Below, one piece after another: positions 1,175-37,891 of a stretch of DNA of 47,430 nucleotides. Below the pieces are notes generated by a model. The model had not been told where the DNA came from and did no database searches. It worked only from the letters and a program-made list of their open reading frames with translations. Source of the DNA: a virus; IMG/VR virus record IMGVR_UViG_3300035698_011774, positions 1 through 47,430 of that record. The stretch is one strand, 5' to 3'. Made by a program: the position numbers and the translations under genes. Position 1 is the stretch's first letter. Every line of letters starts with the position of its first letter.

Positions 1175-3216
1175 TAGCCCCATCCACGTATAAATCAATT
1201 GCTGATACTTTTTCATACAATTATGATGGTAATATCCTTATGTCTAGATTTTTGCAACTAGCGTATAATGAAATCAACACTTATGTAACAGACAATGAAT
1301 TTGATGATGCCACAAAGAACAAAATGGTAGGACACTCCTTACGTGATTCTATTTATACAATTTTGGACAGAGAGATAGATAGCAGAAGACTTGATATGGC
1401 GACAGATCAAGTCGAAGCCGTGAAGGCACTTCAATACCATGTAACTTTTCATTATGGAAGTGTTAATGGATTTTTGTCGGATAATGGTCTTACAGTTATG
1501 TGTAGTTTTGCTGTCCTGTCTGAAAAGGCAGGATATATCATTGACCCGGAGTATATCGATCCTCCATGTGATTTGAGTTCATCAAGTTCGTCGGAATCTT
1601 TGTCATCGTCATCGAGTGTATCCACGGAATCTACTTCAAGTTCATCATCGAGTAGTTCTTCAAGTTCATCAACGAGTTCTTCTTCGAGTTCATCGACCAG
1701 TAGTTCTAGTAGTAGTTCAAGTTCAAGTAGTTCAAGTTCAAATACTCCAAGTTCGTCAAGTTCAAGCAGTAACACCCCAAGTTCAACAAGCTCGTCGAGT
1801 TCAAGTTCAAGTAGTTCAAGCTCTAATACCCCAAGTTCTACAAGTAGTAGTTCGTCAAGCTCGTCAAGTTCGAATACCCCAAGCTCAACCAGTAGTAGTT
1901 CGAGTAGTTCGAATACCCCAAGCTCGACCAGTAGTAGTTCAAGCAGTTCGAATACTCCAAGCTCGACCAGTAGTAGTTCAAGTAGTCCTACCTCATTAAC
2001 CTCAAGTTCGAGTAGTTCATTATCAAGTGTTTCTTCACCTAGCAGTCCAAGTAGTAGTTCGCCAAGTAGTACAAGTAGTTCTTCGTCAAGCAGTCCAAGT
2101 TCTAACACTCCAAGTTCTAGTTCTAGCTCCAATACACCAAGTTCTACTTCGTCAAGTAGTAGTTCGCCAACATCAGAAAGTAGTGAAAGTTCTAATACTC
2201 CAAGTTCTTCAAGCAGTTCAAGTAGTAATACGCCCAGTTCTTCCAGTTCCAGTAGTTCAAGTGATAACGATCAAAGTTCTATTAGCTCAAGCAGTTCGAG
2301 TTCTTCTGATTTGTCTAGTAGCTCAAGCAGTTCTTCAAGTTCTCCAAGCTCAAATACTCCGAGTTCAGAAAGCAGCAATACACCGAGTTCATCAAGTAGT
2401 TCGTCGAGTTCTGAAAGTTCTAATACACCGAGTTCCTCTAGTAGTTCTTCTGCGGTCTTGCCAATGGCAATGACAATAAACCCCGTAGTTCAAACAAAAA
2501 AACCAGAACTTTGGACTCCTGGAATTCGTTATGACCATCCAATTTCTCAAGGATTAGTGGCATACTGGCCATTCTGGGAAGGCGGCGGAAGTAGACTTTC
2601 CGATGTAGGTGGTCAAGGGCGTCACGCTGCTATCGTAAGTTCTGCTCCTATTGGTAACTGGACAATGGGTCCAAATGGTTCTATATACAAGTTTGACGGA
2701 ACTGCCGATTACGCTCAGGTTCCTGACAGTTTTGCATGGCTACCTCATGAGAAAATAACCATCTTTGCTCGTTACAGAAATGACGATCAACAGCAGTCCG
2801 CAATAATTGATTGGAACGATGGGGATTTAAACAATCGTATCGCGTTGTATGCACCGTGGTCTACTGGATTTTACTTCTGGTATTTCGGAAATACAGTAGA
2901 CGGTGGGATCAGTGGAATATGGCCAGGAATTGAAGGTGAGTGGGGAAGCATTGCTGTTACAGCAAGTCCTGCCGGTCAAGAAGTCTATTGGAATGGGCAA
3001 TTAATCAATAGTGATGCTACCGGTGATACGATAACTGCCGCTGTCCAGCCATTAGTTATTGCGAGTGCCAGGACGGGTGCAAGAAGAATGGAAGGTGCGA
3101 TTGATTGTCTTGCTATGTGGAATAGGGTATTGACTGCTTCAGAAATTCTAGAACTTTACTATGATCCATATGGGTTGATAACGCCTAAGAAATGGGTTCA
3201 GTTACAAAAGGAATGA
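1171..3216 (+). CDS. Ser-rich stalk / LamG-like domain adhesin (tail-fibre candidate)
   Basis: I place the start at the ATG at 1171, which overlaps the previous stop (ATGA), rather than the in-frame ATG at 1135. The layout has three parts. An N-terminal globular region (about 130 aa) is followed by about 290 residues of almost pure Ser broken by NTPSS, ESSNTPSS and similar units. Then comes a C-terminal LamG/concanavalin-like jelly-roll of about 240 aa, with the typical RYDHPISQGLVAYWPF entry strand, a DGTADYAQVPDSF strand and a late IDCLAMWNRVLTASEI motif. LamG domains bind carbohydrate or protein surfaces, so a receptor-binding virion protein on a flexible stalk is likely. The position just before terL fits the end of a tail module. 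Host attachment is inferred. Confidence 0.75.
   Translation: MIAPSTYKSIADTFSYNYDGNILMSRFLQLAYNEINTYVTDNEFDDATKNKMVGHSLRDSIYTILDREIDSRRLDMATDQVEAVKALQYHVTFHYGSVNGFLSDNGLTVMCSFAVLSEKAGYIIDPEYIDPPCDLSSSSSSESLSSSSSVSTESTSSSSSSSSSSSSTSSSSSSSTSSSSSSSSSSSSSSNTPSSSSSSSNTPSSTSSSSSSSSSSSSNTPSSTSSSSSSSSSSNTPSSTSSSSSSSNTPSSTSSSSSSSNTPSSTSSSSSSPTSLTSSSSSSLSSVSSPSSPSSSSPSSTSSSSSSSPSSNTPSSSSSSNTPSSTSSSSSSPTSESSESSNTPSSSSSSSSNTPSSSSSSSSSDNDQSSISSSSSSSSDLSSSSSSSSSSPSSNTPSSESSNTPSSSSSSSSSESSNTPSSSSSSSAVLPMAMTINPVVQTKKPELWTPGIRYDHPISQGLVAYWPFWEGGGSRLSDVGGQGRHAAIVSSAPIGNWTMGPNGSIYKFDGTADYAQVPDSFAWLPHEKITIFARYRNDDQQQSAIIDWNDGDLNNRIALYAPWSTGFYFWYFGNTVDGGISGIWPGIEGEWGSIAVTASPAGQEVYWNGQLINSDATGDTITAAVQPLVIASARTGARRMEGAIDCLAMWNRVLTASEILELYYDPYGLITPKKWVQLQKE
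1576..2450 (+). repeat. Degenerate Ser-codon tandem repeat (stalk)
   Basis: About 870 nt made almost entirely of TCA, TCG, TCT, AGT and AGC codons, interrupted by units encoding NTPSS. Codon choice varies from copy to copy while Ser is kept, which indicates selection on the peptide rather than simple DNA slippage. It forms the flexible linker between the N-terminal domain and the LamG tip of the surrounding gene. Long open frames on the other strand and in shifted frames here are by-products of the low complexity. Confidence 0.85.
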
Positions 3217-3218
3217 AA

Positions 3219-6200
3219 ATGCCGAGAAAAGAATATAAAAAATTAAGTACGATACTTGAAGATGTACAATCTTCTTTAAACGCGTCACATTCAGGATTTG
3301 CTATACCTGACATTGTGACATTCTGTGAAAGTACCCAATACCTTGGACTCAAAATTTTTAATCAATACGAAGAAATCATGACAGATTTGTATCCTATGCA
3401 AAAAATAATCCTAAAGATTTTTTATAGGGGATCTCATGGTAATGAAAATCTTACACTAACTGATGAAGAAATTCAATTTTGCAAAGATATTAATCTAGAT
3501 GATGGGCATCATGGGGATGCTTTAGAAAAATATTTCACTACTTCTAAATTCAGAGACTTAATACTTGTCTGGGGACGACGTTCTGGTAAAACATTTTTAT
3601 TCTCCGTTATAGCGGCATACGAAGCGATGAAGCTAATTGAGAGTCCTGGTGGAGATCCATATGCGATATATGGTAAAGGTGCTGGTGCTCCCATATCAAT
3701 CTTAACGGTAGCGAGTTCATCCGATCAGGCAGGTTTAGCTTTTTCGGAGATTAAAGAAAAAATTATTAACAGTGAATATTTTTCTGACAAATATATGCCA
3801 GAAGGTATTGGTGCTGATTCAATTTGCTTATTAACACCAAAAGATAAGCAAGATAATATAGAGAGACAGAGCAGAAAAATTGCGAGAAAAAAAGGTTCTA
3901 TCATCATAGAAGTTGGTCATAGTAATTCTAGTATATTACGTGGTAAATCTATTCATACATTGCTATTTGATGAAATGGCATCTTATAATGTTACTTCCGG
4001 TCCATCCTCTGATGTCAGGCTATATCAAGCATTAGAACCAGCCGTAAACACATATTTCAGAAAAGTCAAAATATTTGATGATGACGGAAATCCAATTATA
4101 GACAATTATGGTAATCAAAAAACAAAGAAAGAATTTGATGGTAAAATCATTTGTATTTCATCTCCTATGGGTAAAGAGGGAGTTCTGTTTGATTTATATA
4201 CTAAATCTCCACAAAAACATAATAGAGTATCGTGTAGAATACCAACATGGAATGTAGACCCGAACCTTTCCGAACAGGACCTGAGAGATGTTAGCAATCT
4301 GCCTGATGAAGAATTTCGTCAAGAATATGGAGCAGAGTTTGCAGGGACAGCAGGTACAACTTTCTTCCCAAGAGAATCAGTGGAAGCACTATTCGATGCA
4401 GGTCGTGGAATGAGCTTTTTAGAATATGGGGAACCGGGAGTTGCGTATTTTGCCCATCTTGACCCAGCAAGCACAAGCCACAACTACGCTTTAGCTGTTT
4501 GTCATAAACAGGTTTTTTTGAACAGGGAAACGAGGACTGCTGATTTTCGCGTTGTTGTTGACCATATCAAATATTGGAGTCCCACAGCAGGAAAACCTAT
4601 CTTAGTTGAAGAGGTTGATAAATATATGATTTATTTGAAGAGTCGATTTTTCTTGGCATCTGTAACATTTGACCAATGGAATAGTGCAGGCAGTATACAT
4701 AAATTGCGGCAGGAAGGTATAGCGGCTAAATGTACTAAATTTGATAACAAATATATCATGGCAATATATGACGAACTATACAGTTTAGTTGTTAGCGGGA
4801 AAATTGTCATTCCATATCACAAACTATTAATGGACGAAATGTTGAATCTTCAAAGAAGACCAACTCCTCGTGGTTACAAAAAAGAACCTAGTAAAACTGG
4901 AACGGTAAAAACGGATGATTTATGTGTAGAACCATCGACAATGGTATTTACTATTGATGGGCCAAAAGAAATTCACCATCTACATATAAATGATATGATT
5001 TTGACACATACAGGAGAATATCGTGGTATCAAAGGAATCAGTCGTCATCGTCCTACTCATAAAATGATGAACATACAACCTTATTATGGGTTTCAATTAA
5101 CAGCTACAGAGAATCATCCAATAGAAGTTATGGATAAAGACGAAACTCGTCTTTGGAAACAAATAAAATACATAACAAAGAAGGATAAAATAATTAAATC
5201 ATTTGATATCGAACAGAAAAAATTCAAAATAGATATATCCGATTATGTCAAACAAAACAACAAAATCAATTTTGTTAATCCGTGGTTAAAGCCTAACAAG
5301 GTAAAGAGTAAAAACCCCGATGGCAAATGGCACAATAGGTTTATTAAATCTGATTACAATTTTGGTTATTTGTGCGGTCTATTCGTTGCCGAAGGGTCAA
5401 TCGGCGATCATTCTATTAGTTTTGCCGGGAATATAGAAGAAGAACATATCTATGAAAAAACTAAAAAAATATCACATAATATTTTTGGAGTATGCCCCAC
5501 ACAACGGTATCAGTTTAGTCCAGATAATAAGGGAATACAATATGATATAAACAGCCAAATAATTAAACGTTTATTTTTATTCTTGTTCCAACGTAAAAAA
5601 GCGATAGGAAAGTTTATACCGCACATGTTTATGATTGCACCGCATAATTTCCAGATTGGTTTACTACATGGGATGTTCGATGGTGATGGTTCTAGTAATG
5701 ATCAACAAATGACATTTACAACTTCATCAAAAAAACTGGCCCATCAAATACAGCAAATATTATTGAGATTTAGAATAATATCCGGTGTGAGTATTTCCCG
5801 TCGCAAAGGAAAAATTGTAAAAATTTGTGACAAGATCAGCAGGCATAATGCGGATTTATATAACATACGGGTAATAGATGCTAAATCTTTTAATAGATTA
5901 AGCGATATGCTGAGGCTTGGTAAGGAGAAACAGCAATCTAAATATCATAAGCCTAAATATATGTTTATAGATGATCATTCAGTAGCGTGTCAAGTATACA
6001 AAATAAACAATGATGCAAAATGCGACGAAGTAATTAATCTTTCTATTAATACAGATAAGTCCTATGTTTCAGAAAGTGTTAATTCTCATAATTGTGACGC
6101 GATTGCAGGGGCATCCTTTATGGCTATACAGTCTCAATTCAACAGATTGCCCAAAGGTAGCTTGGTTGATACCGGAACAGGGACTTCTTCCGGTGCAAGA

Positions 6201-6299
6201 ATGTGGAATTCTATGTCTGGGCCAATGGGGTATGGAACTGGGACGCAGGTTTCAAAACGTTTAGAAAGAATTAATTCGTGGCCAAATAGCAAAAGGTGA
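3219..6299 (+). CDS. terL: Terminase large subunit (TerL), intein-containing
   Basis: Packaging motor ATPase/nuclease. From the most upstream in-frame ATG (3192), the Walker A motif GRRSGKT lies near residues 128-134 and the Walker B motif TLLFDEM near residue 260. The RNase H-like nuclease begins at the HLDPAST motif. A catalytic KTDDL-CDAIAGA motif is interrupted by an intein at 4923-6092; without it the protein is about 640 aa, usual for TerL. In-frame starts exist at 3192, 3213 (ATGA overlap with the adhesin stop) and 3219. I prefer 3219 because AAAAGGA at 3206-3212 is then correctly spaced. No small terminase is recognisable nearby. Splicing must occur to rebuild the nuclease centre. Confidence 0.92.
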   Translation: MPRKEYKKLSTILEDVQSSLNASHSGFAIPDIVTFCESTQYLGLKIFNQYEEIMTDLYPMQKIILKIFYRGSHGNENLTLTDEEIQFCKDINLDDGHHGDALEKYFTTSKFRDLILVWGRRSGKTFLFSVIAAYEAMKLIESPGGDPYAIYGKGAGAPISILTVASSSDQAGLAFSEIKEKIINSEYFSDKYMPEGIGADSICLLTPKDKQDNIERQSRKIARKKGSIIIEVGHSNSSILRGKSIHTLLFDEMASYNVTSGPSSDVRLYQALEPAVNTYFRKVKIFDDDGNPIIDNYGNQKTKKEFDGKIICISSPMGKEGVLFDLYTKSPQKHNRVSCRIPTWNVDPNLSEQDLRDVSNLPDEEFRQEYGAEFAGTAGTTFFPRESVEALFDAGRGMSFLEYGEPGVAYFAHLDPASTSHNYALAVCHKQVFLNRETRTADFRVVVDHIKYWSPTAGKPILVEEVDKYMIYLKSRFFLASVTFDQWNSAGSIHKLRQEGIAAKCTKFDNKYIMAIYDELYSLVVSGKIVIPYHKLLMDEMLNLQRRPTPRGYKKEPSKTGTVKTDDLCVEPSTMVFTIDGPKEIHHLHINDMILTHTGEYRGIKGISRHRPTHKMMNIQPYYGFQLTATENHPIEVMDKDETRLWKQIKYITKKDKIIKSFDIEQKKFKIDISDYVKQNNKINFVNPWLKPNKVKSKNPDGKWHNRFIKSDYNFGYLCGLFVAEGSIGDHSISFAGNIEEEHIYEKTKKISHNIFGVCPTQRYQFSPDNKGIQYDINSQIIKRLFLFLFQRKKAIGKFIPHMFMIAPHNFQIGLLHGMFDGDGSSNDQQMTFTTSSKKLAHQIQQILLRFRIISGVSISRRKGKIVKICDKISRHNADLYNIRVIDAKSFNRLSDMLRLGKEKQQSKYHKPKYMFIDDHSVACQVYKINNDAKCDEVINLSINTDKSYVSESVNSHNCDAIAGASFMAIQSQFNRLPKGSLVDTGTGTSSGARMWNSMSGPMGYGTGTQVSKRLERINSWPNSKR
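4923..6092 (+). mobile_element. TerL intein with LAGLIDADG (DOD) homing endonuclease
   Basis: 390-residue in-frame insertion between exteins ending KTDDL and resuming CDAIAGA. It begins with Cys (block A, CVEPSTMVFT) and ends with HN before Cys (SVNSHN|C), the standard class 1 splice junctions. A block B-like TENHP motif is present near the N-terminus. The two endonuclease motifs are CGLFVAEGS and LHGMFDGDGS, both with the acidic catalytic residue. The insertion point is the most conserved nuclease motif of TerL, a typical intein niche. All splicing residues look intact, so it is probably active. Confidence 0.93.
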
Positions 6300-13436: not shown

Positions 13437-13500
13437 AATATTACAAAAAATGAAAAGGATTATCAAGGAAAATTAAGTAAGTATAGAAACAAGGAGTTAT

Positions 13501-13795
13501 TATGTCAACAACCCCTCTTAAAGGAAGGGCTTAAGAAGTGATTTTTAAGGGCAACTTGTTGACCAGAACACTAATAGGAGAAATTAAAGTTGTTAGTAAA
13601 CGTTAAAAAGAATGTAGAAACCTTGGAATGCCGTCCCAGTTCCTCGCTCTTTCGTGGCTCTGTAAACAAAGACGAAAGTCTTAGTCAACCACATTGCGAA
13701 GTCTTTTTAACCGTTCGAGGGGAAGCCGGACTCTATAGTAACTCCGATACTATGGATACGCACTACTCTACTTTGAGGAGGGCATAACTTGAGAG
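13501..13795 (+). ncRNA. Orphan HEARO/omegaRNA-like RNA (locus A)
   Basis: An ORF-less structured locus. An outer 8-bp stem (13504-13511 with 13556-13563) encloses two hairpins: CCCT/AGGG at 13513-13529 and CTTAA/TTAAG at 13530-13548. The RNA at the isrB locus (17748-17807) has the same layout with different bases: GTCAT/ATGAC, CCATG/CATGG and TTAAGA/TCTTAA. Downstream both share a GAATnCC..CC.AGTT..C.CTCTT block (13628 here, 17879 there) and a later GGGGAA element. This covariation by eye makes the two loci members of one RNA family. No nuclease gene is present here. It begins on an ATGTCA with a strong SD upstream, so it may have inserted into the start of a lost gene. RNA ends are approximate. 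Confidence 0.55.
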
Positions 13796-13841
13796 TATAT
13801 GTCATAAATCAAAGAATAAGTTTACAGGAAATGACAATAAT

Positions 13842-13889
13842 GGAGATACGAAAGGTGTCTCCAATTCATCCCGTCCCTAAAGGAACGGG
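13842..13889 (+). other. Right-end hairpins of locus A (IS200/IS605-like end)
   Basis: Two adjacent hairpins: GGAGATAC/GTGTCTCC (13842-13862) and CCCGTCCC-TAAA-GGAACGGG (13870-13889, one mismatch). The second is followed by TTTCTTT and preceded by AATTCAT. An AATTCATCCCG...CGGGTTTCTT end is the style of subterminal hairpins at IS200/IS605 and tnpB-type element ends, so locus A may be a miniature element of about 390 nt. It could also serve as a terminator. The next gene's ribosome binding site (GGAGAAA) follows directly. Confidence 0.45.
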
Positions 13890-13907
13890 TTTCTTTGGAG
13901 AAAATAT

Positions 13908-14489
13908 ATGAAGTTCGTAACAAACAAAATAAGCATGAACCCTGGAACCTTCGATGATTTCGTCAATAAAGTTCTATCAGGAGGAGAAACTGTTAAGACT
14001 GCTTCTGTCAAAACGGCAGAGCAGGATGAAGCCGAAAGCAGTGGACAGCCAGAAGCTGAAGCAAAATTAGTCAATGATCCTGAAAAGGAAGGCGGAAAGT
14101 CAGGTAAAGCTGATAACAGCGAAGCTCCCAGCAGTGGACAACCTGAAGCCGAAGCCAAGTTAGTCAACGATCCTAAAAAGGACTGCGACAAAGAAGCTGC
14201 TGGTGCCGATAATTTCGGTGGCAAGCAAGCACCTCCATTTGGTAGTGAGGATGACGACAAGAAAGACGACAAAGAAGATGACGATGACAAAGAAGATGAC
14301 AAGAAAGATGACGATGACGAGGAAGAGGATAAAGAAGCCTCTGCCGACGTTACAAAAAAAGAATCTTTCAGAAAATTGGCTTTGCTTAAAGTTTCAGCAT
14401 TAAATGCTCCAACGAAAGCCATGTTGAGAACATATTGGCTTACAATGTATCCTTCTGACTACGTTGATGCAATGCTTGCCGAGAAATAA
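13908..14489 (+). CDS. Hypothetical acidic protein (193 aa) with internal duplication
   Basis: GGAGAAA lies about 7 nt before the ATG. Residues about 43-90 contain two near-identical copies of SSGQPEAEAKLVNDP separated by about 34 residues. Residues 105-145 are an almost pure Asp/Lys tract. The C-terminal 40 residues form a compact segment (TKAMLRTYWLTMYPSDYVDAMLAEK). A similar Asp/Lys tract occurs in the giant scaffold-like chain at about 26230. A scaffold-associated or internal head role is an inference from composition. Confidence 0.55.
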   Translation: MKFVTNKISMNPGTFDDFVNKVLSGGETVKTASVKTAEQDEAESSGQPEAEAKLVNDPEKEGGKSGKADNSEAPSSGQPEAEAKLVNDPKKDCDKEAAGADNFGGKQAPPFGSEDDDKKDDKEDDDDKEDDKKDDDDEEEDKEASADVTKKESFRKLALLKVSALNAPTKAMLRTYWLTMYPSDYVDAMLAEK

Positions 14490-17744: not shown

Positions 17745-18006
17745 AATGTCATATGTCCATGGGAGTAAAACATGGTTTAAGAAAGGCATCTTAACGTAAG
17801 CAATGACTAGACTAATGAGAAGTTTTATGAAAAAGAAAACAATATCTACCAGCATAAAATGCTATAAGAACGGTACGAATTCCTCCCGAGTTTTGCCCTC
17901 TTCTGGGACCGCCGATCCCGATGTATCTTCTGATACTAAGCATAATGTTGCTTGTCTACGGGGAAATACTGGTGACAGTGCCAGACCGAATGTCGGTAAT
18001 CACACT
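17745..18006 (+). ncRNA. omegaRNA/HEARO-like RNA of the isrB locus (locus B)
   Basis: Directly upstream of and overlapping the isrB open frame, where IscB/IsrB guide RNAs lie. An outer stem (17748-17752 with 17803-17807) encloses hairpins CCATG/CATGG (17757-17775) and TTAAGA/TCTTAA (17777-17794). Further hairpins are CTGG..CCAG near 17970 and CCGA-ATG-TCGG near 17990. The fold and the block at 17879-17904 match locus A. In this family the guide lies 5' of the scaffold, so the candidate guide is the roughly 16-20 nt before 17745. The 3' end should be close to where the conserved protein begins (18007). Confidence 0.6.
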
Positions 18007-19014
18007 GTTTTTGTCCTAAATTACGAAGGAAAACCGTTAACACCCACTACATCAGCAAAGGCAAGAAAACTTTTGAAAGGAGGTAAAGCAAAGAAAGTTT
18101 GGAGTAAATTTAATACTTTTGGCATTCAACTGTTTGAAGAAACGAGAGAAAAAATACAAGATACTACTCTTGGTTATGATCCCGGTACTAAATTCGAAGG
18201 TGTATCAGTTGTTTGTGGTGATGAAAATAATCTTTCGGTGAAATGGGATTTGCCAGATAAAAAACAGATTGTTAAAAGGATGAAAAAACGCAGAATTTTA
18301 AGGAGAACTAGAAGGCAACGAAATTGTAGAAGACGTAAGGCTAGGTTTAAAAATAGAAGTAGAAAGGGATTTATAGCACCTTCTCAATTAGCAATTGTTC
18401 AATCCAGGTTAAAAGTATTAAGAGAATTTTGTAAAATTTACCCTATTCAGAATGTTGCAATAGAAGATGTAAAATTTAATCATTACAAATATCGTTGGGG
18501 TAGTAATTTTAGTACTATCGAAATAGGGAAAGAGAAAATAAGAGAATTTTTCATAGATAAAGATATTAATATTTTTGAATATCGGGGTTTTGAGACAGCA
18601 GAATTAAGAAAGAAATATGGTTATAAGAAAACAAGAATTAAGAATGCCGATAAATTTTCTACTCATTGTTCTGATTCGTTAACCCTTGCCGTTGATGTAA
18701 ATTGCGGAGAAAGAGTCCCTGAAGGAAATTTTTTAGTAGTGGATGATACTTACCGTCATGTTAGAAGACGATTACATGATACACAATTTTCTAAAGGTGG
18801 CATTCGATATAAATATTCTCACGGTAACGCAAATGGTGTTGGCAAAGGGATAATGATAGGAACGAGCAAAGGTAACATTGGACAACTTTGTGGGACCAAG
18901 AATGGTTCTTTTAGATACTATGATTCAAAAGGTAAACGCCAAGTGATTAAAAAACTATTTTGGATTAACAATCAGTTTAAAATCAAAGGAGATACACGGA
19001 TTACTGTTGGATAA
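17803..19014 (+). CDS. isrB: IsrB-like RNA-guided nuclease (RuvC only, no HNH)
   Basis: 403 residues from the ATG at 17803; the conserved protein starts at VFVLNYEGKPLTP (18007). Domains in order: PLMP-type N-terminus (PLTPTTSAKARKLL), RuvC-I with Asp (GYDPG, D126), Arg-rich bridge helix (about 160-192), RuvC-II with Glu (VAIEDV), RuvC-III with HCSDS, and a C-terminal TAM-recognition-like part (KGNIGQLCG, YYDSKGKR). Between RuvC-II and RuvC-III only about 55 residues intervene and there is no HNH, which separates IsrB from IscB. IsrB enzymes are RNA-guided nickases. The first ~66 residues coincide with the RNA element. No ATG, GTG or TTG lies immediately before VFVL, so an N-terminal extension or an unusual start is required. 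Confidence 0.85.
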   Translation: MTRLMRSFMKKKTISTSIKCYKNGTNSSRVLPSSGTADPDVSSDTKHNVACLRGNTGDSARPNVGNHTVFVLNYEGKPLTPTTSAKARKLLKGGKAKKVWSKFNTFGIQLFEETREKIQDTTLGYDPGTKFEGVSVVCGDENNLSVKWDLPDKKQIVKRMKKRRILRRTRRQRNCRRRKARFKNRSRKGFIAPSQLAIVQSRLKVLREFCKIYPIQNVAIEDVKFNHYKYRWGSNFSTIEIGKEKIREFFIDKDINIFEYRGFETAELRKKYGYKKTRIKNADKFSTHCSDSLTLAVDVNCGERVPEGNFLVVDDTYRHVRRRLHDTQFSKGGIRYKYSHGNANGVGKGIMIGTSKGNIGQLCGTKNGSFRYYDSKGKRQVIKKLFWINNQFKIKGDTRITVG

Positions 19015-19047: not shown

Positions 19048-21843
19048 ATGGGAATTAAATTCTCTATCAGTAATAAACAAGTGAAGAGAAAATTTTCCGC
19101 ACACTCAAGAAGTCTGGCTCAACCTGCTGGCCTGATTCAACATCATGCCGCATCAACTACCGCACCTACACCATTAACCAAAAGTATCGTAGAACCATAC
19201 ACAAAAATGGGACAAGCAATGGGTTCAGGTGGTGGGTTACCCAATGTAATGTATGGACAACCTATGTTCTTTTCACCACTCCATACACCACAAAACTGGC
19301 AAATTGCTAGTAAAAAGAGAGAAATTTATCAGTGGGCCAGATTCTATTACTGTTTTACACCAGAATCTTTGGTGCTAATGGAAGATGGTACAGAAAAAAG
19401 GATAGACGAGATAAACATCGGGGATAAAGTTGTTAATGGTGCAGGATGTTTCAGTATTGTTAAAAAAATTCATACGAGAGATATTGCTGAAGATATTCTA
19501 TCAGTCAAAATAGGTGGCATAAACAGAGAGATCAATGTTACTAAATCACATGAAATATCTGTCGTTAAACAAGAGAATTGGAAAAAACACATACGGGATG
19601 GTAGTCTTAAAGAAGAATTGATTGAGGCATTGGATATAAAGATAGGAGATAGGTTGTATACTCCATCTATAAAAACAGAAAACAGATTATATAGGGTAGT
19701 AATATCGATACAAGAAGAATATTACGAGGGAGAGGTGTATGATTTAGAGTTAGAGGGAGAACATAGTTATTGCGTAAATAGATGCGTTGTGCATAATTCG
19801 AACGAGCCGAAGGTAGCAGCTGGCATCGACTTCTACTCAGAATTTCCGCTTAATAATTTCGTTTTAGAATGCAAAGATAAAAAAATATTGAAGTTTTACG
19901 AGAGAGTTGCAAAAAAATTAAAATTGAATTACTGGCTTAAAGCCATTGGCTTTGAGAGATATTTATTAGGTGATGTATATCCTTTCGTAGAATATTCGTG
20001 TCCAAAATGTGCTGGATCAGGTAGATTGAAAGATGGAACCGCTTGTAATCACCCAGGTGGAACTGTAAGTAAACTCAAGATATTAAACCCTGATTGGATT
20101 ACAGTACATAAGAATCCAATATCAGAAGAAGCCGTTTATATGTTAGAACCAGATGACGAGTTGAAAGGTATCATTGCTACGAAACGTCCAGAAGCCATAT
20201 ATAATAGTCTACCGGCTGCTTTGATCGAATCTGTATCCACAGGGCAGCCTATTATATTGTCCAACAGAAATATCAGTCATATAAAATATGGTGGCAGTCC
20301 ATATAGTGCTTATGGGACTTCTATGATCCGTAGAATGTTCACGTATTTAGCATACAAAACGAAGTTGATGACAGCGAACTGGATTATTGCCGAAAGGTTA
20401 GTTCTCCCTATCCGTATTGTCAAATTGGGTTCAGATCAGCGTCCTGCCACCGCTGCTGATATTGCAGATGTTTCATCACAATTAGTAGCCGTTGCAAACG
20501 ATCCTAATTTGACACTTGTTACCCATAATAATTTTGATTATGAGTGGATTGGTGCCGCTGGCAAGATACATAACATCACTAACGAATTAGAAGAAATTGG
20601 CAAAGAAATCCTAGATGGCTTTATGTTAAACCAAGCTATTCTTAACGGCGAGGCTAGTTCTTATTCTTCTGCCCAAGTTGGTATTGAAATTATGATTGCT
20701 CGTCTTGAGAGTTGGAGAAACGAATTAGCAGATTGGGTTGAAAACCATATTTTCTTACCAATAGCTATGATGCAGAATTTTAAAGACGAACAAGAAAGTG
20801 CGGAAGCTGATGAAGATGTGTTTATCTATCCAAAATTAAAATGGGATGATTTACAGTTGCGTGATCGAACAAACTTCAGACAAATTCTTATGCAACTGCA
20901 TGATAAGGGACTTATTTCTGCTCAGCGTTTGTTGGAAGAATTCGATATCGATTACGATCAGGAAACAAGAAAAATTAGAGAAGAAAATGCATTAGCTTCT
21001 GCAACCGGACAATTCCTCGGGCAGCAACAGGGAGGAATGGGCGGTATGGGCGGAATGCCAATGGGTGGAGGAATGGGCGGAATGCCACCAATGGACATAG
21101 GTGGTGGAGGAATGCCAGGAATGGAGCCAGGAGGGATGCCAGGGGCAGCACCAGGGATGCCAGGAGCAGAACCCGGAGGAATGCCTGGGGCAGCACCACC
21201 AGCGGTAGCTGCCGCTCAACCAGTTTCACCTGCACCTACTTTTATAAGTAAACGAGGTAAAGGTGGAAAATCTCTTGCCGAACAACAGCAGGAGCAATCT
21301 CAGCAACAGGCTCAACAGTTCCAGCAAAGTTTACAGAATATTCGGCTGACTACTCTTGAACAGAAGATGTTGAATGGGTTGTCGATGTTGTCTGGACAGA
21401 TACCTTATAAATTCTACTTACAGTATAAGATAGCTACAGCTGGTTCTCCACAGCCTTATGTATTAGATTTTGCATATCCAGATATTAGTGTCGGAATTGA
21501 GGCCGAAGGCGAGGTCTGGCACGATCAAATGGATCAAAAAATTCACGATCAACAGAGGGATCAGGTTCTTGCTAATATAGGATGGAGAGTATTGAGGTTT
21601 AAAGAAGAAGCCATTGACGGTAAGATGCCGGAAATCCTTAAAGTGATTTTCAATAATATTGCCGAAGCTGCCAAAGAAAAGTCTGGCCAAGTTAACAAAG
21701 CTGCCAGTGCAGATGAGAGAATTAAATTAGCTGGACCACCATTACAAATATTGGATATCAATAATAATTTAAAGGAAGGTTTGAAGTTTCGTAGAATAGA
21801 TATGCAGGACGGTTTAGGACATATTTATCTCATAGGAACTTGA
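19048..21843 (+). CDS. Portal protein with mini-intein and C-terminal DUF559/Vsr-like nuclease domain
   Basis: The portal core follows a Trp/Tyr-rich N-terminus (QPMFFSPLHTPQNWQIASKKREIY). It includes a zinc-knuckle-like CPKC..ACNH insert (about 19999-20055), the FERYLLGDVYPFVEY segment, and long helices that should line the DNA channel. A Gly/Met/Pro-rich linker (21000-21230) leads to a C-terminal domain (about 21340-21660). That domain has the DUF559/Vsr-type PD-(D/E)XK pattern: YVLDFAYPD, IEAEGEVWHDQ, RDQVLANIGWRVLRF. A 149-residue intein lies at 19351-19797. The order terL ... portal ... protease ... MCP is standard. Nuclease activity of the tail is inferred. Confidence 0.85.
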   Translation: MGIKFSISNKQVKRKFSAHSRSLAQPAGLIQHHAASTTAPTPLTKSIVEPYTKMGQAMGSGGGLPNVMYGQPMFFSPLHTPQNWQIASKKREIYQWARFYYCFTPESLVLMEDGTEKRIDEINIGDKVVNGAGCFSIVKKIHTRDIAEDILSVKIGGINREINVTKSHEISVVKQENWKKHIRDGSLKEELIEALDIKIGDRLYTPSIKTENRLYRVVISIQEEYYEGEVYDLELEGEHSYCVNRCVVHNSNEPKVAAGIDFYSEFPLNNFVLECKDKKILKFYERVAKKLKLNYWLKAIGFERYLLGDVYPFVEYSCPKCAGSGRLKDGTACNHPGGTVSKLKILNPDWITVHKNPISEEAVYMLEPDDELKGIIATKRPEAIYNSLPAALIESVSTGQPIILSNRNISHIKYGGSPYSAYGTSMIRRMFTYLAYKTKLMTANWIIAERLVLPIRIVKLGSDQRPATAADIADVSSQLVAVANDPNLTLVTHNNFDYEWIGAAGKIHNITNELEEIGKEILDGFMLNQAILNGEASSYSSAQVGIEIMIARLESWRNELADWVENHIFLPIAMMQNFKDEQESAEADEDVFIYPKLKWDDLQLRDRTNFRQILMQLHDKGLISAQRLLEEFDIDYDQETRKIREENALASATGQFLGQQQGGMGGMGGMPMGGGMGGMPPMDIGGGGMPGMEPGGMPGAAPGMPGAEPGGMPGAAPPAVAAAQPVSPAPTFISKRGKGGKSLAEQQQEQSQQQAQQFQQSLQNIRLTTLEQKMLNGLSMLSGQIPYKFYLQYKIATAGSPQPYVLDFAYPDISVGIEAEGEVWHDQMDQKIHDQQRDQVLANIGWRVLRFKEEAIDGKMPEILKVIFNNIAEAAKEKSGQVNKAASADERIKLAGPPLQILDINNNLKEGLKFRRIDMQDGLGHIYLIGT
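19351..19797 (+). mobile_element. Portal mini-intein (no endonuclease)
   Basis: In-frame insertion of 149 residues between RFYY and SNEPKV. It starts with Cys (CFTPESLVLMEDG) and ends CVVHN before Ser. Block B-like TKSHE and block F-like YDLELEGEHSYCV motifs are visible. There is no LAGLIDADG or HNH domain, so it is a splicing-only mini-intein that can no longer home by itself. The insertion site lies in the conserved portal N-terminal clip/wing region. Confidence 0.92.
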
Positions 21844-22383: not shown

Positions 22384-25300
22384 ATGATTAATAAACCAGT
22401 TATTAAACTGGCTATTCAATCTATCGAGCCATTGAATAAGCCGGATTGGGCAGAGTATAATTTAACAAGAATCAAAGTCGCATCAATCGATAAATCAAAA
22501 GATTTAGCAGGGTTCGATTTAGAGGCAGCAAAGCAAGAACATCCAGATCATCTCTTTGTAAAAGTTTTCGCAATTAGGGAGGATGAAGTCAACGACAATG
22601 GGGACGCATTCTCTAAAAGCGAATTACAGAAAGCATATCAGACATTTGTTGGGGTGCCAATTTTCACAAATCACCAAAATGATGATGTGGAAAAAGCCAA
22701 AGGCAAATGTGTTCATTCATGGTATGACGAAAAAGCCGGTGGGATTTACATCATATCAATGATTGACAAAGTTGCATATCCCAGATTAGCCAGAGGAATC
22801 AGCGAGCGTTATGTAGAGGGATCTTCGATGGGATGCTTTCCTGGAGAGATGAGGGTTCTTCTGTCATCCGGTAAGTATAAGCAAATTAAGGATATACGAC
22901 AAAATGACCATGTAATCACGCACAAAGGTAATATCAAACCAGTAATTAATGTACAGAGGCATCTTGACAAAGAAGATGATTTTGTTTATGATATTAAAGT
23001 GGAAGGACTCCCCAATATCATCTCTAGTACAAAAGAGCATCCATTCTATGTTCTAAAGACTCATAATAAATGCTTTATCACGGGTGATGATATACCAGTG
23101 GCCAATGGATACAATAGATTTAAACGTAGAACTAAATTCGGAGTTTATCAAAAAGAAGAATATGCTGTTGCTGTTAAAAACCGAGAATTAGAAAAATATG
23201 ATTTTGAATGGAAAACGGCAGAAAATCTGACAACGAGGGACATGGTTGCATTCCCAATTTCTGACTATACGAAAAATCACGAAGATGCTACACAAGAAAA
23301 AGCACGGCTTATAGGATACTTTTTGGCAGAAGGAAGTTATTTAAAATATAAAGGTGAAAAAACAGCTGTTGAATTTAATTTTTCTTTATCCGAAAGAAAC
23401 ACACTCGTCAAAGAGGTTGATAAACTATTAAGATTAGCTTTTCCTGGATTCAGAAATGAACCAAAAATTCAATATAGACCAAAACGCAATACATGTATGA
23501 TTCGTTTGTATGGCAAAGATATTGCACAATGGTTCTATAAATACTGCGGAGAATATTCACACGAAAAAAGACTGTTTGGTCCTACTCTCTATTGGCCAAA
23601 GGAAATACAAACACATATCGTGGCTACCTGGATCAATGGGGACGGGACAAGACGCAGAATATGCCACAAGAAAAATAAAAAAATATATGATAATCTAGTA
23701 GGTACAACATGTTCTGAAACCCTTTTATATCAGATGAGATTTATATTGTCTCGTTTGGGTATCTATTCCACTATTAACCATCGCAAGGCAATAAACATGA
23801 CGAAATGTACCAGGGATCGTTATGACCTTTCAATGGGTAGTGCGGAATCTAAAAAATTAAATGGTTATGTTTGTGCCGCAAAACGCTGTTATGGCAGTTA
23901 CAAAAGAACTTGGTTTAGAAAAGCTGACAGTTACATGGTTATGCCAATAAAAAAAATTACTAAAAAGTATAATACAGAGCCAGTTTATAATCTTCAAGTA
24001 CAAGATGACCATTCGTATATAGTAGAGGGGGTTGCTGTTAAAAATTGTGCTGTGGACTATTCATGTTGCTCTATTTGCCATAATAAAAGTAACGTAGCAG
24101 ACGAATATTGCGATCATATCAGAAATCAAAAAAGCAGAAAAATCAGTGCTGTTGTTCCTTGTAAATATCATGAAAGCAAGAACCAACCAAAAGATGATTG
24201 TCCAATATGTGGGCAATCATATTCAGAATACAAAGTTGGTTCTGTGAATAAGTTCAAACATTCAGAATCTCAGGTTTATGAATGGAACTATGGAATCAAA
24301 TTTATTGAAGATTCTTTCGTTGTAAATCCAGCATGCCATGATTGTCTCGTACAAGACATCCTTAATCCAGATGCTATAAATAGAAAGATTGCAGACATCC
24401 AAAAAAAGTTAGATAAGATGAAAAAGGTTGCTTCCTGCACGACTGGATGTAACCTAGAAAAATTTGCAGGTGAAAAAGAATTAAACTTTTTAGAAGAAGC
24501 TATGAATAAAATAATTGTTGTTTCCAAAAGTTTAATGGCTCAAAATAAACAAGTTTCAATGGAGTATGTTTCTAACCTAGTAGATGTGTTAGCAAACTTA
24601 CAAACCACAGCAGACGAACTCACGGAAATGGGGTACGGCGAACTGCCATCTCCAGATCCATCAGCAGTCGAAAATATGGAAGTCCCTTCAGAAGAAGAAC
24701 TTACGGAAGAAACACAACAGCCAGTACCAGAACAGCCACAAGGTTCTACCATGCAACCGCAAATTCCTCCAGCCGGTCAACCAGTGGTAACCCAGCCTGC
24801 ACCAGGAGTTATGACAGAACAGTTTGGAGACCTTGGATCGGTTACAAAGCCTAAGTTCTCAGCAGTAGTTAGAAAAAAGAAAGAGGACTTTTTACAAGCT
24901 TCTGCTATTATTGTAGATAAGCTAGATGAGCTACAGGAAAAGTACACTGAAATGGAAAATACACATAAAAAGGAAAACACCACCATGAGTGATACTAAAC
25001 AGGGTAAAAGCGAACCTACTATTGAGAAGGTCGCAGGTCCAGAGCATCGAGTAGATGTTATTAATGAAAAACAACTAGACGATGCCGAGTTTACTGGTGA
25101 GAGACAGGATGAGAAATATCCTAAAGTCATCACAGAAAAGCAAATGAATGATCCCGAGAGGGATGTTAATGTAACTACAAGCGAGAGTCCACAGCCAAGA
25201 CAGGATGATAGTCCTAATGTTATCACTGAAAAGCAATTTAATAGCATTAGTGGTACTCACGTTACTCGTTGGGATGATTTCCCCAATGTAATCACAGAAA

Positions 25301-28300
25301 AGCAGTGGACCGAAACAAGCCGCAGGCTAGGTTCAGAATTATCAAAAGATCAATCAAATATCATCACAGAAAAGCAGTTGATTGATTTCTTGGATCACCA
25401 CAGATATGTGGAAAGAAATACAATCACTGAAAAGCAGCTTAACGACGATGCGTTGACCACGACTGGTGACCTATCTCGTTGGGCATATGTTTATGATGCT
25501 GATCGTCTAGTCAAATCAGCAGCAGAAGCAATGTCGGATGCTATTGCTTATTATGGGTATACTCCAGATGAGATCAAACAAGCATCAGCATTTATCACAG
25601 AAAGTCCTAGAAATAGGAATAAAGCAGCATATCTTACTCTTATTAACGCATTACCTCATAAAAAGGCCGCAAGAGACAATGAAAAAGCCCGTTATGAGTA
25701 CTTTGCGAAAACAGCTAATAAGGAAGTCCGACCAGAAGTCGTTGATGCTCTTATTCTGTCTATGGCAGATGCTGTTTCTGATATGAGTGCTGATGATCTT
25801 ATTGATACAGTTTCACATGTTGCATATTCTGATAAGGCATTTGTTAAAGTTGACAAAATGGCTTCAGATAAGATGAACTCAACAAAAGAAAAGAAAGATG
25901 GTGGAAGCAAGATGAATGCGTTGAAAAATGCTATCGCAGATCTTGGGACTGATAAAGAAGATGATGGTCTCTACGAAGTTAGAGCACATCTTGATGATCT
26001 GGGTGTGACTGATGATTCAGATACAAATGAAGTTTCAAAAGCAGCATATAATTTTGCGAATAAAAAAATCGCAGAAAGTGTTGGAGAAGCAGTAGATACA
26101 GCGTTAATGAATGTTAAAACTAATAAAGAAACCGGCCAAGTTGTTTCCCTATTAAAAGAAGCAAGTAAATTGACAACCGAAGAATCAGAAGCTTGGGGAC
26201 AAGCAAAAACGGCATGGAACTTTGATAAGAAGAAAGATGATGACAAGGATGATGACGATGACAAGAAAGATGATGACAAGGATGATGACGATGACAAGAA
26301 AGATGATGACAAAGAATCTGAAGCAACAGAAGACACCAAAACAGCAGCAAGAGAAGAGATCGTCAAGGAAGCTCAACTGTTAGGTGGAGAAATGGGTGGA
26401 CAAGCCGGAGCAGCACAGGGTCCAGGTGCAGGTGCAGCAGCACCACAACCACCTGAAGCTGGTGGTGCCCCATTAGAGAGTTTTGAAGATAGTGATCTGG
26501 GTGGTGAGTTAGAAGGTGAAGGTGATCTTCAACCTAAACCACCTGGAACGTTCTGCCATGTCTGTACATCAGAGGATGTTGATGTTGCTGGTGGACAAGG
26601 CAGATGTAATAACTGTGGTGCAAGATGGACAAACGAGATTGTCACAAAGACACTTGAATGGCCAGAAACTCTTGAAACAGCAAAAGAACCTGCAATCGGA
26701 GAAGATGAAGAATTCGGTGAAGAAGGTGGATTCGAAATGCCAGAAGTTCCTGAACCAGGAGCAGCAGCACCACCTCCAATGCCAGCAGCACCAGCAATGC
26801 CAGCAGCTGCAAGTACTGACAATAATAAAATGACAAAAACAGCAGCAGCTGAATACGCTGATTTTGCAGAGTTCATGAGAAAGCATGGAAAATTTGCTTC
26901 TACAACCCGCATTACTTCAGAAATGATATCTAAAGCGGAAGAAAGTAAAATCGCATTAGGTTCTGTAAGTCCATTTACAGGATCAACAAATACTATTAAA
27001 CTGGCAAATGGAGACCGAGTATGTTTGGATACAGGGTCTTCTTATACAGTAGAATACAGAGTACATAAAGATGATCCTAAAAAGGTATATGCAAGATGGG
27101 TTTGGAATCCAGATGGAGCCAAAGTTGGTTGCTCGCAGTGTGAGCGTGGCCGTCTAGCGTTCGTTGAAGCCCTTAGTAAACATGACATCACGGAAGCAGC
27201 ATTCGATGCCATGGGACTAAAAGAAAAGGGTGATACTATATTACAGATGAAGACAGCAGGCTCAATCAAGACCATTAAAACTGCATCCAAAGAAAAGAAT
27301 GTTTTGAGTATGGTTAAAGAGGCTTCAGTTAGCCTAGAAGCAGATGATTTCCCAATGGAATCATGTGTTCAGAAATTAGCAAACCGTTATGGTGAAGATG
27401 CTGTTGCATTGAGCGGACCATGTGAAGGTAAAAATCTTGCTGACTGCGTATGTAAGTCATTGAAGAAAGCAGGCGTTTATTCAAATGGTTTGGCCCTCAA
27501 GGTTGCTGATGTATGGAAAGATAAAAGTAGTATTTCCGAATGTTTGGAAGACTTCGTAAGACTTGGGCACGATTTAAAAACCGCATCAAGTATTTGCGAA
27601 GCTATGAAAACAAAATATGCACAGTTCGATGACGAATTCACAGAAGATGTTGAAGGCGTAATTGATGAAGACCCCGAATTCGTTGAAGATGAGTTCGGTG
27701 GAGAAGATGATTTTGGTATGGGTGAAGAAATTAGCCCATTCGAAGATGAAGGAATGGAAGAACTTGGTGGTGATGATGTTGCTAAAGCTTTGGCCGATCT
27801 GACAAGAGCATTGGGCAAAGAAGATGCCGTCAGCGATGAATTATCAGGTGGTGGAGATCTCGGCGTAGAACCAGAAGGTGAAATGGTTGTAGACGTAACA
27901 GATGAAATTATGCCGGGTGAAGAAGGTGGAATCGAAGAAGAAATTGGAATTATTGACGATATTCCAGGAAGCCCTGAAGAAAATGCTATCGAAGAGGAAG
28001 TTGGGATTGAAGAAGATGAATGTGCAGGTGGAGCAGTGGCTCCTATGGAAGGTGGAGAAGTTGCCCCAGAGGGTGATATAGAAGGTGGAGAATTAGCACC
28101 AGCTAAAGGTGGAGAGGTAGAAGTGGAAGTAGAAGTTGAGAATGATGATGACGACGATGATCGTCTACATAGAAATAGAAGAAATGATAATGCGGGAGTA
28201 CTGAACGAAGAAGAAACTGATGAAAAAGTGGAAAAAGAAGGTGACGACGATGACGACAATGACGATGATTTCAGAGGTAGTAGACCCAGAAATAAGGACA

Positions 28301-29454
28301 ACCCTGACAGAACTTGTACGGAAGGTGGAGAGAGGCGTCATGACGGAGGACGAAGGCGTTATACAGAACAGGAGGCTGCCATCATGAGACATGGATATAT
28401 TGGTAAAACCGATGAACTGAACCATCTAGATTTCAGTAAACTGGAAGGTTTGCTCGACAAGCAGGCTAATGATATTAAGTCAAAGCCAGCACAAGAAGTG
28501 GCCCCAGGACCGATTAGCGGTAAAACAAAGATCGGTGATGAAGATGCCTTCACAGCCGACAAGCCATCTGCACCGTCAAAGGGTGATGCTTCTAAAATTA
28601 AGAATGAAGAACCCCCAAAGGCAGAAAAAGCAACTGCACCTGTGTCTGATGCTAGAATGGGTGGAGAAAAATCTGAACCTGACTTGAAGCCAGAACTTGA
28701 TGATGTTGCAACTGGTGGAGACGAAGGTCAGGGTACTTCAAGAGCAGCATCAACGAAGGAAAGAATCAACCGTTTGGCAGATTCCATTATTGCACAAACG
28801 CAGATTAAGAGGAAGCAGGACCAAGATGATGAAGACACAAAACCATATTCCGGTGATAGTTTCATCGGTGGTGAAAAGGATTCAATCGGTGATATACCCG
28901 ATTCAAAACCTGCTGGAGAACAAGATATTCCTCGTAATGAAGCCTTTATTGGTAATGAAAAAGAATCAATTGGTGAAAAACCAAGTGAAAAAGATATGCC
29001 TGATATCCCAACAAAGGATGACAGGATTGGTGGAGAAACAGATAATGAAGTTTTGAAACCAGAAAAAGATGATGTTGCAACTGGAAATGTAAAAGAAATG
29101 TCTGCATCGACAGAAGTTAGTGGTGAAGCAATCCGCCTTGCTGGTAGAATGCTTCAGGATGGGAAGATCGGAATCAACGATCTTTCAATGAAAATTGCCG
29201 AATTGCAGCGTTACGAAATAGAACAGTTAAAAGATTTTGAAAAGAATATTTTTGAGACAAAAGGACTTGAAGCAAAGTCTAGCGGTTTAGAGCAAGCACC
29301 GGTAATTTCTGAATCTGCTAATATACCAAAGACGGCATCTACTAAGGAAGAATTAGTGGATGCAATCCAAGGTATGTTTAAGTTAGATCGCAGAAACAAA
29401 CAGGCTCAGCAGGATGATGATATTCATCTAAGGAAAGAATTTGGGATGCTGTAA
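22384..29454 (+). CDS. Prohead protease fused to a giant scaffold-like chain, intein-containing
   Basis: 2356 residues; AAGGAAA precedes the ATG. The N-terminal protease resembles T4 gp21/S80-type prohead proteases: the FTNHQNDDVEKAKGK motif has His97 and VEGSSMGC has Ser147/148. A Cys-rich segment (CCSICHNK..YCDHI) follows once the intein (22834-24045) is removed. The rest, about 1800 residues, is mostly acidic. It has an ITEKQ repeat region (25057-25440), Asp/Lys tracts, a zinc-ribbon (CHVC...CNNC, about 26552-26620), Pro/Ala/Gly linkers and long Glu/Gly-rich blocks. Such a chain fits a scaffold or core cleaved by its own protease. An internal ATG at 24985 with AAAAGGAAAA upstream could yield a separate scaffold product. 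Confidence 0.82.
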   Translation: MINKPVIKLAIQSIEPLNKPDWAEYNLTRIKVASIDKSKDLAGFDLEAAKQEHPDHLFVKVFAIREDEVNDNGDAFSKSELQKAYQTFVGVPIFTNHQNDDVEKAKGKCVHSWYDEKAGGIYIISMIDKVAYPRLARGISERYVEGSSMGCFPGEMRVLLSSGKYKQIKDIRQNDHVITHKGNIKPVINVQRHLDKEDDFVYDIKVEGLPNIISSTKEHPFYVLKTHNKCFITGDDIPVANGYNRFKRRTKFGVYQKEEYAVAVKNRELEKYDFEWKTAENLTTRDMVAFPISDYTKNHEDATQEKARLIGYFLAEGSYLKYKGEKTAVEFNFSLSERNTLVKEVDKLLRLAFPGFRNEPKIQYRPKRNTCMIRLYGKDIAQWFYKYCGEYSHEKRLFGPTLYWPKEIQTHIVATWINGDGTRRRICHKKNKKIYDNLVGTTCSETLLYQMRFILSRLGIYSTINHRKAINMTKCTRDRYDLSMGSAESKKLNGYVCAAKRCYGSYKRTWFRKADSYMVMPIKKITKKYNTEPVYNLQVQDDHSYIVEGVAVKNCAVDYSCCSICHNKSNVADEYCDHIRNQKSRKISAVVPCKYHESKNQPKDDCPICGQSYSEYKVGSVNKFKHSESQVYEWNYGIKFIEDSFVVNPACHDCLVQDILNPDAINRKIADIQKKLDKMKKVASCTTGCNLEKFAGEKELNFLEEAMNKIIVVSKSLMAQNKQVSMEYVSNLVDVLANLQTTADELTEMGYGELPSPDPSAVENMEVPSEEELTEETQQPVPEQPQGSTMQPQIPPAGQPVVTQPAPGVMTEQFGDLGSVTKPKFSAVVRKKKEDFLQASAIIVDKLDELQEKYTEMENTHKKENTTMSDTKQGKSEPTIEKVAGPEHRVDVINEKQLDDAEFTGERQDEKYPKVITEKQMNDPERDVNVTTSESPQPRQDDSPNVITEKQFNSISGTHVTRWDDFPNVITEKQWTETSRRLGSELSKDQSNIITEKQLIDFLDHHRYVERNTITEKQLNDDALTTTGDLSRWAYVYDADRLVKSAAEAMSDAIAYYGYTPDEIKQASAFITESPRNRNKAAYLTLINALPHKKAARDNEKARYEYFAKTANKEVRPEVVDALILSMADAVSDMSADDLIDTVSHVAYSDKAFVKVDKMASDKMNSTKEKKDGGSKMNALKNAIADLGTDKEDDGLYEVRAHLDDLGVTDDSDTNEVSKAAYNFANKKIAESVGEAVDTALMNVKTNKETGQVVSLLKEASKLTTEESEAWGQAKTAWNFDKKKDDDKDDDDDKKDDDKDDDDDKKDDDKESEATEDTKTAAREEIVKEAQLLGGEMGGQAGAAQGPGAGAAAPQPPEAGGAPLESFEDSDLGGELEGEGDLQPKPPGTFCHVCTSEDVDVAGGQGRCNNCGARWTNEIVTKTLEWPETLETAKEPAIGEDEEFGEEGGFEMPEVPEPGAAAPPPMPAAPAMPAAASTDNNKMTKTAAAEYADFAEFMRKHGKFASTTRITSEMISKAEESKIALGSVSPFTGSTNTIKLANGDRVCLDTGSSYTVEYRVHKDDPKKVYARWVWNPDGAKVGCSQCERGRLAFVEALSKHDITEAAFDAMGLKEKGDTILQMKTAGSIKTIKTASKEKNVLSMVKEASVSLEADDFPMESCVQKLANRYGEDAVALSGPCEGKNLADCVCKSLKKAGVYSNGLALKVADVWKDKSSISECLEDFVRLGHDLKTASSICEAMKTKYAQFDDEFTEDVEGVIDEDPEFVEDEFGGEDDFGMGEEISPFEDEGMEELGGDDVAKALADLTRALGKEDAVSDELSGGGDLGVEPEGEMVVDVTDEIMPGEEGGIEEEIGIIDDIPGSPEENAIEEEVGIEEDECAGGAVAPMEGGEVAPEGDIEGGELAPAKGGEVEVEVEVENDDDDDDRLHRNRRNDNAGVLNEEETDEKVEKEGDDDDDNDDDFRGSRPRNKDNPDRTCTEGGERRHDGGRRRYTEQEAAIMRHGYIGKTDELNHLDFSKLEGLLDKQANDIKSKPAQEVAPGPISGKTKIGDEDAFTADKPSAPSKGDASKIKNEEPPKAEKATAPVSDARMGGEKSEPDLKPELDDVATGGDEGQGTSRAASTKERINRLADSIIAQTQIKRKQDQDDEDTKPYSGDSFIGGEKDSIGDIPDSKPAGEQDIPRNEAFIGNEKESIGEKPSEKDMPDIPTKDDRIGGETDNEVLKPEKDDVATGNVKEMSASTEVSGEAIRLAGRMLQDGKIGINDLSMKIAELQRYEIEQLKDFEKNIFETKGLEAKSSGLEQAPVISESANIPKTASTKEELVDAIQGMFKLDRRNKQAQQDDDIHLRKEFGML
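22834..24045 (+). mobile_element. Prohead-protease intein with LAGLIDADG endonuclease
   Basis: 404-residue in-frame insertion between GSSMG and CAVDYSC. It begins with Cys (CFPGEMRVLLSSG) and ends VAVKN before Cys, so the penultimate residue is Lys rather than the usual His; Asn is kept. Block B-like TKEHP and block F-like YNLQVQDDHSYIVEGV are present. The two LAGLIDADG motifs are IGYFLAEGSY and VATWINGDGT. It sits two residues after the catalytic-Ser motif, so splicing is needed for protease activity. Confidence 0.92.
25057..25440 (+). repeat. Six-fold I-T/N-E-K-Q repeat in the scaffold-like chain
   Basis: Within about 130 residues, six copies of (V/I/T)I(T/N)EKQ(L/M/F/W) occur, spaced roughly 15-30 residues apart by acidic, Asp/Pro-rich spacers. 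The spacers differ but the pentapeptide is nearly invariant. T4-type prohead proteases cut after (L/I)-x-E, and I-T-E fits that rule, so each repeat could be a maturation cleavage site. Site function is inferred. Confidence 0.6.
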
Positions 29455-34498: not shown

Positions 34499-34523
34499 CT
34501 ATAATGGTATGAAAGGGATTATT

Positions 34524-36625: not shown

Positions 36626-36811
36626 ATGTATGATGGAATTGAAATCAGCAGTATTAGAGCATACAACGAAGACGGTGAGGAAATGATGGGTATTTCGGTA
36701 GTATTTACAAAAAAATACTATAAACAAATTATAGATGCGATTGATAGTATCAATGAGTGTGGCGAACAATATAACGATTTCCAAGACAAGACAGGAGATA
36801 GATTACAATGA
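36626..36811 (+). CDS. Array protein 2 (61 aa), helical module + tag
   Basis: Start at 36626 because GGAGAG lies 6 nt upstream; an in-frame ATG at 36605 lacks an SD. The N-terminal part is a beta-hairpin followed by a helix (TKKYYKQIIDAIDSINE), shared in outline with array proteins 3 and 7. The C-terminus is YNDFQDKTGDRLQ, a diverged tag. ATGA overlap with the next gene. Confidence 0.7.
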   Translation: MYDGIEISSIRAYNEDGEEMMGISVVFTKKYYKQIIDAIDSINECGEQYNDFQDKTGDRLQ

Positions 36812-37173
36812 AATTTAAAGTTGGAGATAGAGTCAAATACAAAGATATGTACGATCCGCTCGATTTTCATGGGGAGGGGACTATTATTTACATAGGAACA
36901 GTACCCAATCGTTATTATGTAGACTGGGATGAATTACCCACTTTTTGTACTTCTATGAAATTAAAATACCTCACTTGGGTTTCTCCCGAACAAGCCATGT
37001 ATGATCATGATTTTAAAGAAGAAATCACACTTTTAGATGATGGTGATTTTGAAATTACATTGAGATTGAGTAAACAGAACTATTATAGGATTATGGAACT
37101 GGCTAGAGAAATCGCAAAAGGAGTCGATCAGCATGATGATTTTGAAAAAAAGATAAAAGATAGATTACAATGA
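36808..37173 (+). CDS. Array protein 3 (121 aa), SH3-like + helical module + tag
   Basis: The largest tagged member. It has an N-terminal SH3/KOW-like barrel (FKVGDRVKYKD, then GTIIYIG, then YYVDWDELP). A second module (FEITLRLSKQNYYRIMELA) resembles the one in array proteins 2 and 7, and the tag HDDFEKKIKDRLQ follows. It therefore combines both N-terminal module types of the array in one chain. ATGA overlaps on both sides. Confidence 0.72.
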   Translation: MKFKVGDRVKYKDMYDPLDFHGEGTIIYIGTVPNRYYVDWDELPTFCTSMKLKYLTWVSPEQAMYDHDFKEEITLLDDGDFEITLRLSKQNYYRIMELAREIAKGVDQHDDFEKKIKDRLQ

Positions 37174-37633: not shown

Positions 37634-37638
37634 TAAGT

Positions 37639-37866: not shown

Positions 37867-37886
37867 TTTTTCCGCAAAAAAAGGAG
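37867..37886 (+). promoter_or_regulatory. T5-CCGC-A7 motif merged with a strong SD
   Basis: TTTTTCCGCAAAAAAAGGAG: the recurrent intergenic motif followed directly by AAGGAG, 5 nt before the ATG at 37892. This is the strongest ribosome binding site in the array and favours 37892 as the start over the in-frame ATG at 37844. Confidence 0.4.
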
Positions 37887-37891
37887 ATACT

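Follow-up and report, generated by a model that had tools for sequence, protein, structure and literature searches.

Locus A, a 404-base insertion at positions 13504-13907 of the 47,430-base viral sequence analysed here (the window), is very probably an IscB (HEARO/OMEGA) element that has suffered an internal deletion and is no longer autonomous; its last base lies immediately before a phage gene's start codon, at 13908. Rfam lists the omega RNA of nucleases of the IscB type under the name HEARO. Using Rfam with its curated cut-offs, a single RF02033 (HEARO) match was obtained within the window, at 13504-13731 on the + strand (as are all features of loci A and B given below), with 95.2 bits against a curated cut-off of 83 bits, an E-value of 2.5e-18 and full-length coverage of the model (positions 1-211). 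An earlier note on this DNA had proposed a guide-like structured RNA at this place, and one is indeed found there; the extent it gave, 13501-13889, fits the RNA plus its terminal hairpin, though the element itself spans 13504-13907. The outer stem around two hairpins that it described is part of the RF02033 family model, and it co-varies. When the family structure was projected onto a plain MAFFT alignment of locus A and nine relatives (ten sequences, the alignment not being fitted to the structure), 83.9% of the cells were paired and both sides had changed in 35 of 61 pairs; with the pairing slid by 1-3 columns in the same ten sequences, at most 44% of the cells were paired and at most 19 pairs were double-changed. 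This comparison thus indicates that the outer stem and inner hairpins of A are real, a conserved and co-varying secondary structure. The folding energy of A alone was no better than that of shuffled sequences (z 0.15), so energy by itself would have missed the structure.

When viral contigs were searched with a core segment of A's RNA, a complete IscB element was found on a phage contig, IMG/VR 3300035698_017885 (L017; L023 is one and the same contig). From the start of the RNA through the first nine IscB codons, A is 93% identical to it over 318 nt, and the identity is 82% over the final 76 nt, a stretch that takes in the terminal hairpin and runs on to ATGAA; between these two matching parts the L017 reading frame is continuous. 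Relative to this element A is short of 1134 bp, exactly 378 codons, in frame, and in the full-length copy AGA is found at each end of the deleted stretch, with the junction in A at 13813-13816. What remains is an ORF of 40 codons (13789-13911), with a TTG start after GAGGAGG, in which nine N-terminal IscB codons are joined in frame to the IscB C-terminal tail; its stop codon, TGA, shares bases with the following gene's ATG (ATGA), and in L023 the stop of the full-length IscB overlaps the next start codon likewise. Since the L017 protein matches solved IscBs across both RuvC and HNH, A's RNA belongs to an IscB element. L017 has the omega RNA followed by a RuvC+HNH protein that makes up such an element, whereas A has only the 40 remnant codons; the claim that A lacks a nuclease gene holds, though a scrap of the IscB frame persists. 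L017 is a relative of A, not necessarily its direct parent.

Both termini of A match the full-length element, with the middle gone, as in MITE-like internal deletions. The left-end hairpin CCCCTCTTAAAGGAAGGG (13512-13529) resembles the right-end hairpin CCCGTCCCTAAAGGAACGGG (13870-13889), whose stem is kept in L017 and which is the IS605-style hairpin that the note had seen at the end of A. It is followed by the right end TTTCTTTGGAGAAAATAT (13890-13907), arranged alike in L023, which stops at the start codon and brings a new Shine-Dalgarno-like GGAG about 8 nt before the ATG. MITE/PATE-type deletion derivatives of IS200/IS605 elements keep both ends and lose the internal coding region. A resembles them in this, but it also keeps a complete guide RNA, is present in one copy in the window and has no TnpA seen with it. 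The reading of A as a miniature element, which the note had offered as one of two options, is well supported, since A retains its two ends and its entire RNA, the gene is deleted and relatives have the empty site.

Those relatives, L002 and L003, have the same gene order as the window, with neither A nor isrB (described below) present. At site A they have AAGGAG, six bases and ATGAAGTTC, where the window has AAGGAGTTATTAT, the element and ATGAAGTTC; at site B they have AAGGA, eight bases and ATGGGAATT, where the window has AAAGGAATATAAT, the element and ATGGGAATT. Neither insertion requires a target duplication. The left flank of A, which the note had proposed to look for in relatives lacking the element, aligns with their empty sites; these prove insertion, not movement of the deleted form. 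The interrupted gene (13908-14489) is intact, encoding a 193-aa protein of no assigned function that is 62-64% identical to the L002 and L003 proteins, with the start at the same position. By tblastn, IscB/IsrB was absent from 21 relatives covering the region, and HEARO was not found in 13 of those 21; in the data examined, the A and isrB insertions both appear specific to the window's lineage.

No match was obtained by blastn of A with its flanks against 50,697 phage records, and scans of genome contigs, for IsrB relatives and for a HEARO core pattern, found nothing; exact core-pattern matches in L018, L020 and L021 were rejected as chance, no HEARO being detected there. The window's portal and its 408-aa protein (34479-35705) were not found in L017's record, and L017's PhoH-like protein is absent from the window and its two close relatives, though it matches a 186 kb phage in which the gene upstream of A likewise has a relative. 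At 36808-41124 the window encodes a run of small proteins with (D/E)KI(K/R)DRL tails, and L017's contig has short proteins ending in DKIKDRL. Elsewhere, an IscB element on a Pseudoalteromonas plasmid (L014:2461-3300, with no annotated gene there) shows an internal deletion and a frameshift, and at L015:2427-2503 a group II intron directly adjoins a truncated HEARO/IscB locus.

The differences between A and L017 are unevenly spread: 17/228 in the RNA, 0/27 in the nine N-terminal codons, 19/45 in the C-terminal scrap and 6/44 in the right end (segment borders set by hand, at most 3 bases off the ORF start), the RNA being better conserved than the scrap (Fisher P 4e-8). Within the RNA, 14 of the 20 differing alignment columns lie outside pairs, and the others still form standard pairs in A. 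That A is a dead relic drifting away is a serious possibility, if one we lean against: its nuclease gene is deleted, it is a single copy, and its first hairpin has lost one base pair relative to L017; on the other side, its RNA is full length and above the family cut-off, the differences fall mainly outside pairs, both end hairpins are intact and the remnant ORF remains open. The pattern of differences, as far as sequence comparison goes, fits retention of the RNA, yet it is not assignable to A's branch alone because L017 itself is presumably functional and under selection; the extra divergence of the C-terminal scrap could also stem from a parent other than L017. The note had held that a degenerate RuvC frame would make A merely a dead copy; a deleted copy of a nuclease element it is, but that it is "merely dead" does not follow either, given the contrast between RNA and scrap.

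The nuclease gene nearest to hand is isrB (17803-19014; RRXRR, PF14239 at 142.7 bits), 4 kb from A, which encodes an RRXRR/RuvC protein without HNH in the range of about 350-400 aa, as expected of an IsrB. Its closest solved relative is IsrB of D. thermocuniculi (8dmb), to which it aligns through the RuvC motifs, the alignment ending before the target-motif residues. It is the second insertion, independent of A, and lies before the start codon of the portal gene (19048), with an empty site in relatives. The RNA region of this locus B (17748-18000, from family search and folding) lies 5' of isrB and overlaps it; it is divergent and did not reach the RF02033 cut-off, with no match at E<=1 or at E<=10. 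It folds as an outer stem with two hairpins, and a relative, L012, keeps those stems with changed bases (judged by eye); the folding energy is uninformative (z -0.59, a single sequence). The isrB frame (17803-18001) continues backwards across the RNA region of its own locus, and close to the first conserved residues it has no ATG in frame. The L012 record, a 149 kb phage contig, has two different RRXRR nucleases (G011:C1:16238-16747 and 95639-96118), one of them related to the window's IsrB.

The earlier note placed A in the same family as the isrB RNA and suggested that A could supply IsrB with a second guide in trans. The common 5' layout, an outer stem with two hairpins, stands, but B is not a close relative of A, and the sequence blocks that the two were said to share did not show up: a repeat search listed nothing common to both RNAs. 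A role as second guide for IsrB is very improbable. The two do lie in one genome with RNAs of one layout, RRXRR loci with ORFs of about 350 aa and without obvious HNH (L029, L033) carry HEARO-type RNAs, and stand-alone omega RNAs can work with a related IscB, according to work cited in PMC9581776; but the HEARO model that A matches well misses the IsrB RNA altogether, A's RNA belongs with an HNH-bearing IscB element that is 93% identical to it and of another lineage, and the insertions are independent. A lacks a protein like 8dmb, and it has an RNA of the IscB type.

The window is heavily loaded with homing elements besides. Inteins (LAGLIDADG/Hint) are present in the terminase and portal genes, a third large ORF seems to contain one too, and ORFs resembling homing endonucleases lie among possible pieces of the capsid gene; homing-element or intein stretches are at 3192-6299, 19048-21843, 22384-29454, 30330-31250, 31898-32731 and 33509-34498.

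As a deleted IscB element, A may instead provide a putative trans-acting guide for an IscB from elsewhere, a reading that we hold tentatively. By analogy with IscB/IsrB omega RNA, the presumed guide is the stretch of about 20 nt directly 5' of the scaffold (13484-13503), and this is the leader and Shine-Dalgarno sequence (AAGGAG) of the interrupted gene. The element inserted between this Shine-Dalgarno and the ATGA start codon, as the empty sites record, and an in-frame deletion, seen against the full-length copy, has left about 40 IscB codons together with the left hairpin, the whole omega RNA and the right hairpin. Read-through of the phage operon could give an omega RNA with the host gene's leader as guide, which would be aimed at the uninterrupted allele beside its ATGA; a matching IscB acting in trans could cut empty alleles and so help A to persist. 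Its source might be the unseen remainder of the genome or a co-infecting phage. The partner is hypothetical, as the 47 kb window shows no IscB gene; it may lie beyond the window, which may be a fragment, given that related contigs are as long as 186-548 kb and that IscB/IsrB genes occur on some large phage contigs.

The right end, with its new GGAG and the overlapping stop of the remnant ORF, may also restore the start region of the host gene. It is conceivable, though unlikely, that A is kept for changed regulation of the downstream gene, through the new leader and the start-coupled remnant ORF, and not for guide activity. The exact position of the insertion between Shine-Dalgarno and ATG, the spacing of the new GGAG, the stop/start overlap and the preservation of the frame through the deletion would all suit this; however, the right-end arrangement is inherited from the full-length element, as L023 shows, so that no new selection is needed.

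Insertion directly before a start codon is not peculiar to A. HEARO elements insert before ATGA/GTGA, so that docking at start codons may be known in part, though no statement of it was found in the open literature searched. Among 20 elements with a visible right end, an open frame of at least 77 codons starts exactly at the post-element ATGA/ATGG, with the flanks joined, in 14; L046 is a fifteenth case by its right end alone, the frames after L037 and L040 are short (61 and 52 codons), L025 is a doubtful case, and L038 and L041 lie inside genes. The docking right ends are those of L012, L013, L023, L024, L026, L029, L034, L036, L037, L039, L040, L043, L045, L046 and L047 and those at 13908 and 19048 of the window. 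For 17 of 20 docked, P is about 1e-5 even when only non-disrupting ATGA sites are allowed (rates from the window), though as these were counted after the pattern had been noticed, and partly by eye, this is a strong lead and not a test. Independently of this count, 12/23 elements have a Shine-Dalgarno core within the final 20 nt of their left flank, against 6/69 control windows (P 3e-5). From the 20 elements, HEARO elements would seem to be placed immediately before start codons, the target-adjacent ATGA/ATGG doubling as start codon, as is presumed for the ATGA at 13908. Both ATGA (A) and ATGG (B) fit the published target-adjacent motifs of IsrB, NTGA, NTG and NTGG (PMC9581776). Such docking would explain how dense phage genomes can take up these elements with their genes unbroken, and it means that the leader of the gene behind the element usually serves as the guide.

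A second orphan was found in another phage (L034:2732-3081): a HEARO RNA of 127.4 bits with a right-end hairpin and no nuclease, between terminase small- and large-subunit-like genes and ending at the start codon of the latter. Judged by sequence, it is independent of A and did not derive from it. It may be, though we think it rather doubtful, that phages carry miniature guide-only OMEGA cassettes at the start codons of structural and packaging genes (A, and the terminase case of L034), used in trans by the IscBs of related phages.

Stand-alone omega RNAs that can function with IscB have been reported for that family (cited in PMC9581776), so guide-only loci are not a new idea. A is like the HEARO/IscB omega RNA loci in sequence, fold, position, flank-derived guide and terminal hairpin, differing in its deleted nuclease gene, and like the stand-alone omega RNAs, as that paper presents them, in having no nuclease of its own; beyond what is described there, its full-length relative, deletion ends and empty site are identified, in a phage. 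A is thus of a kind already known, but unusually well documented, a traceable case of how a stand-alone omega RNA originates by in-frame internal deletion, with full-length relative and empty site both on record. If phages do use such cassettes in trans, IscBs would cut the cassette-less alleles of rivals at the ribosome-binding site, and so spread a homing element that has no nuclease of its own.
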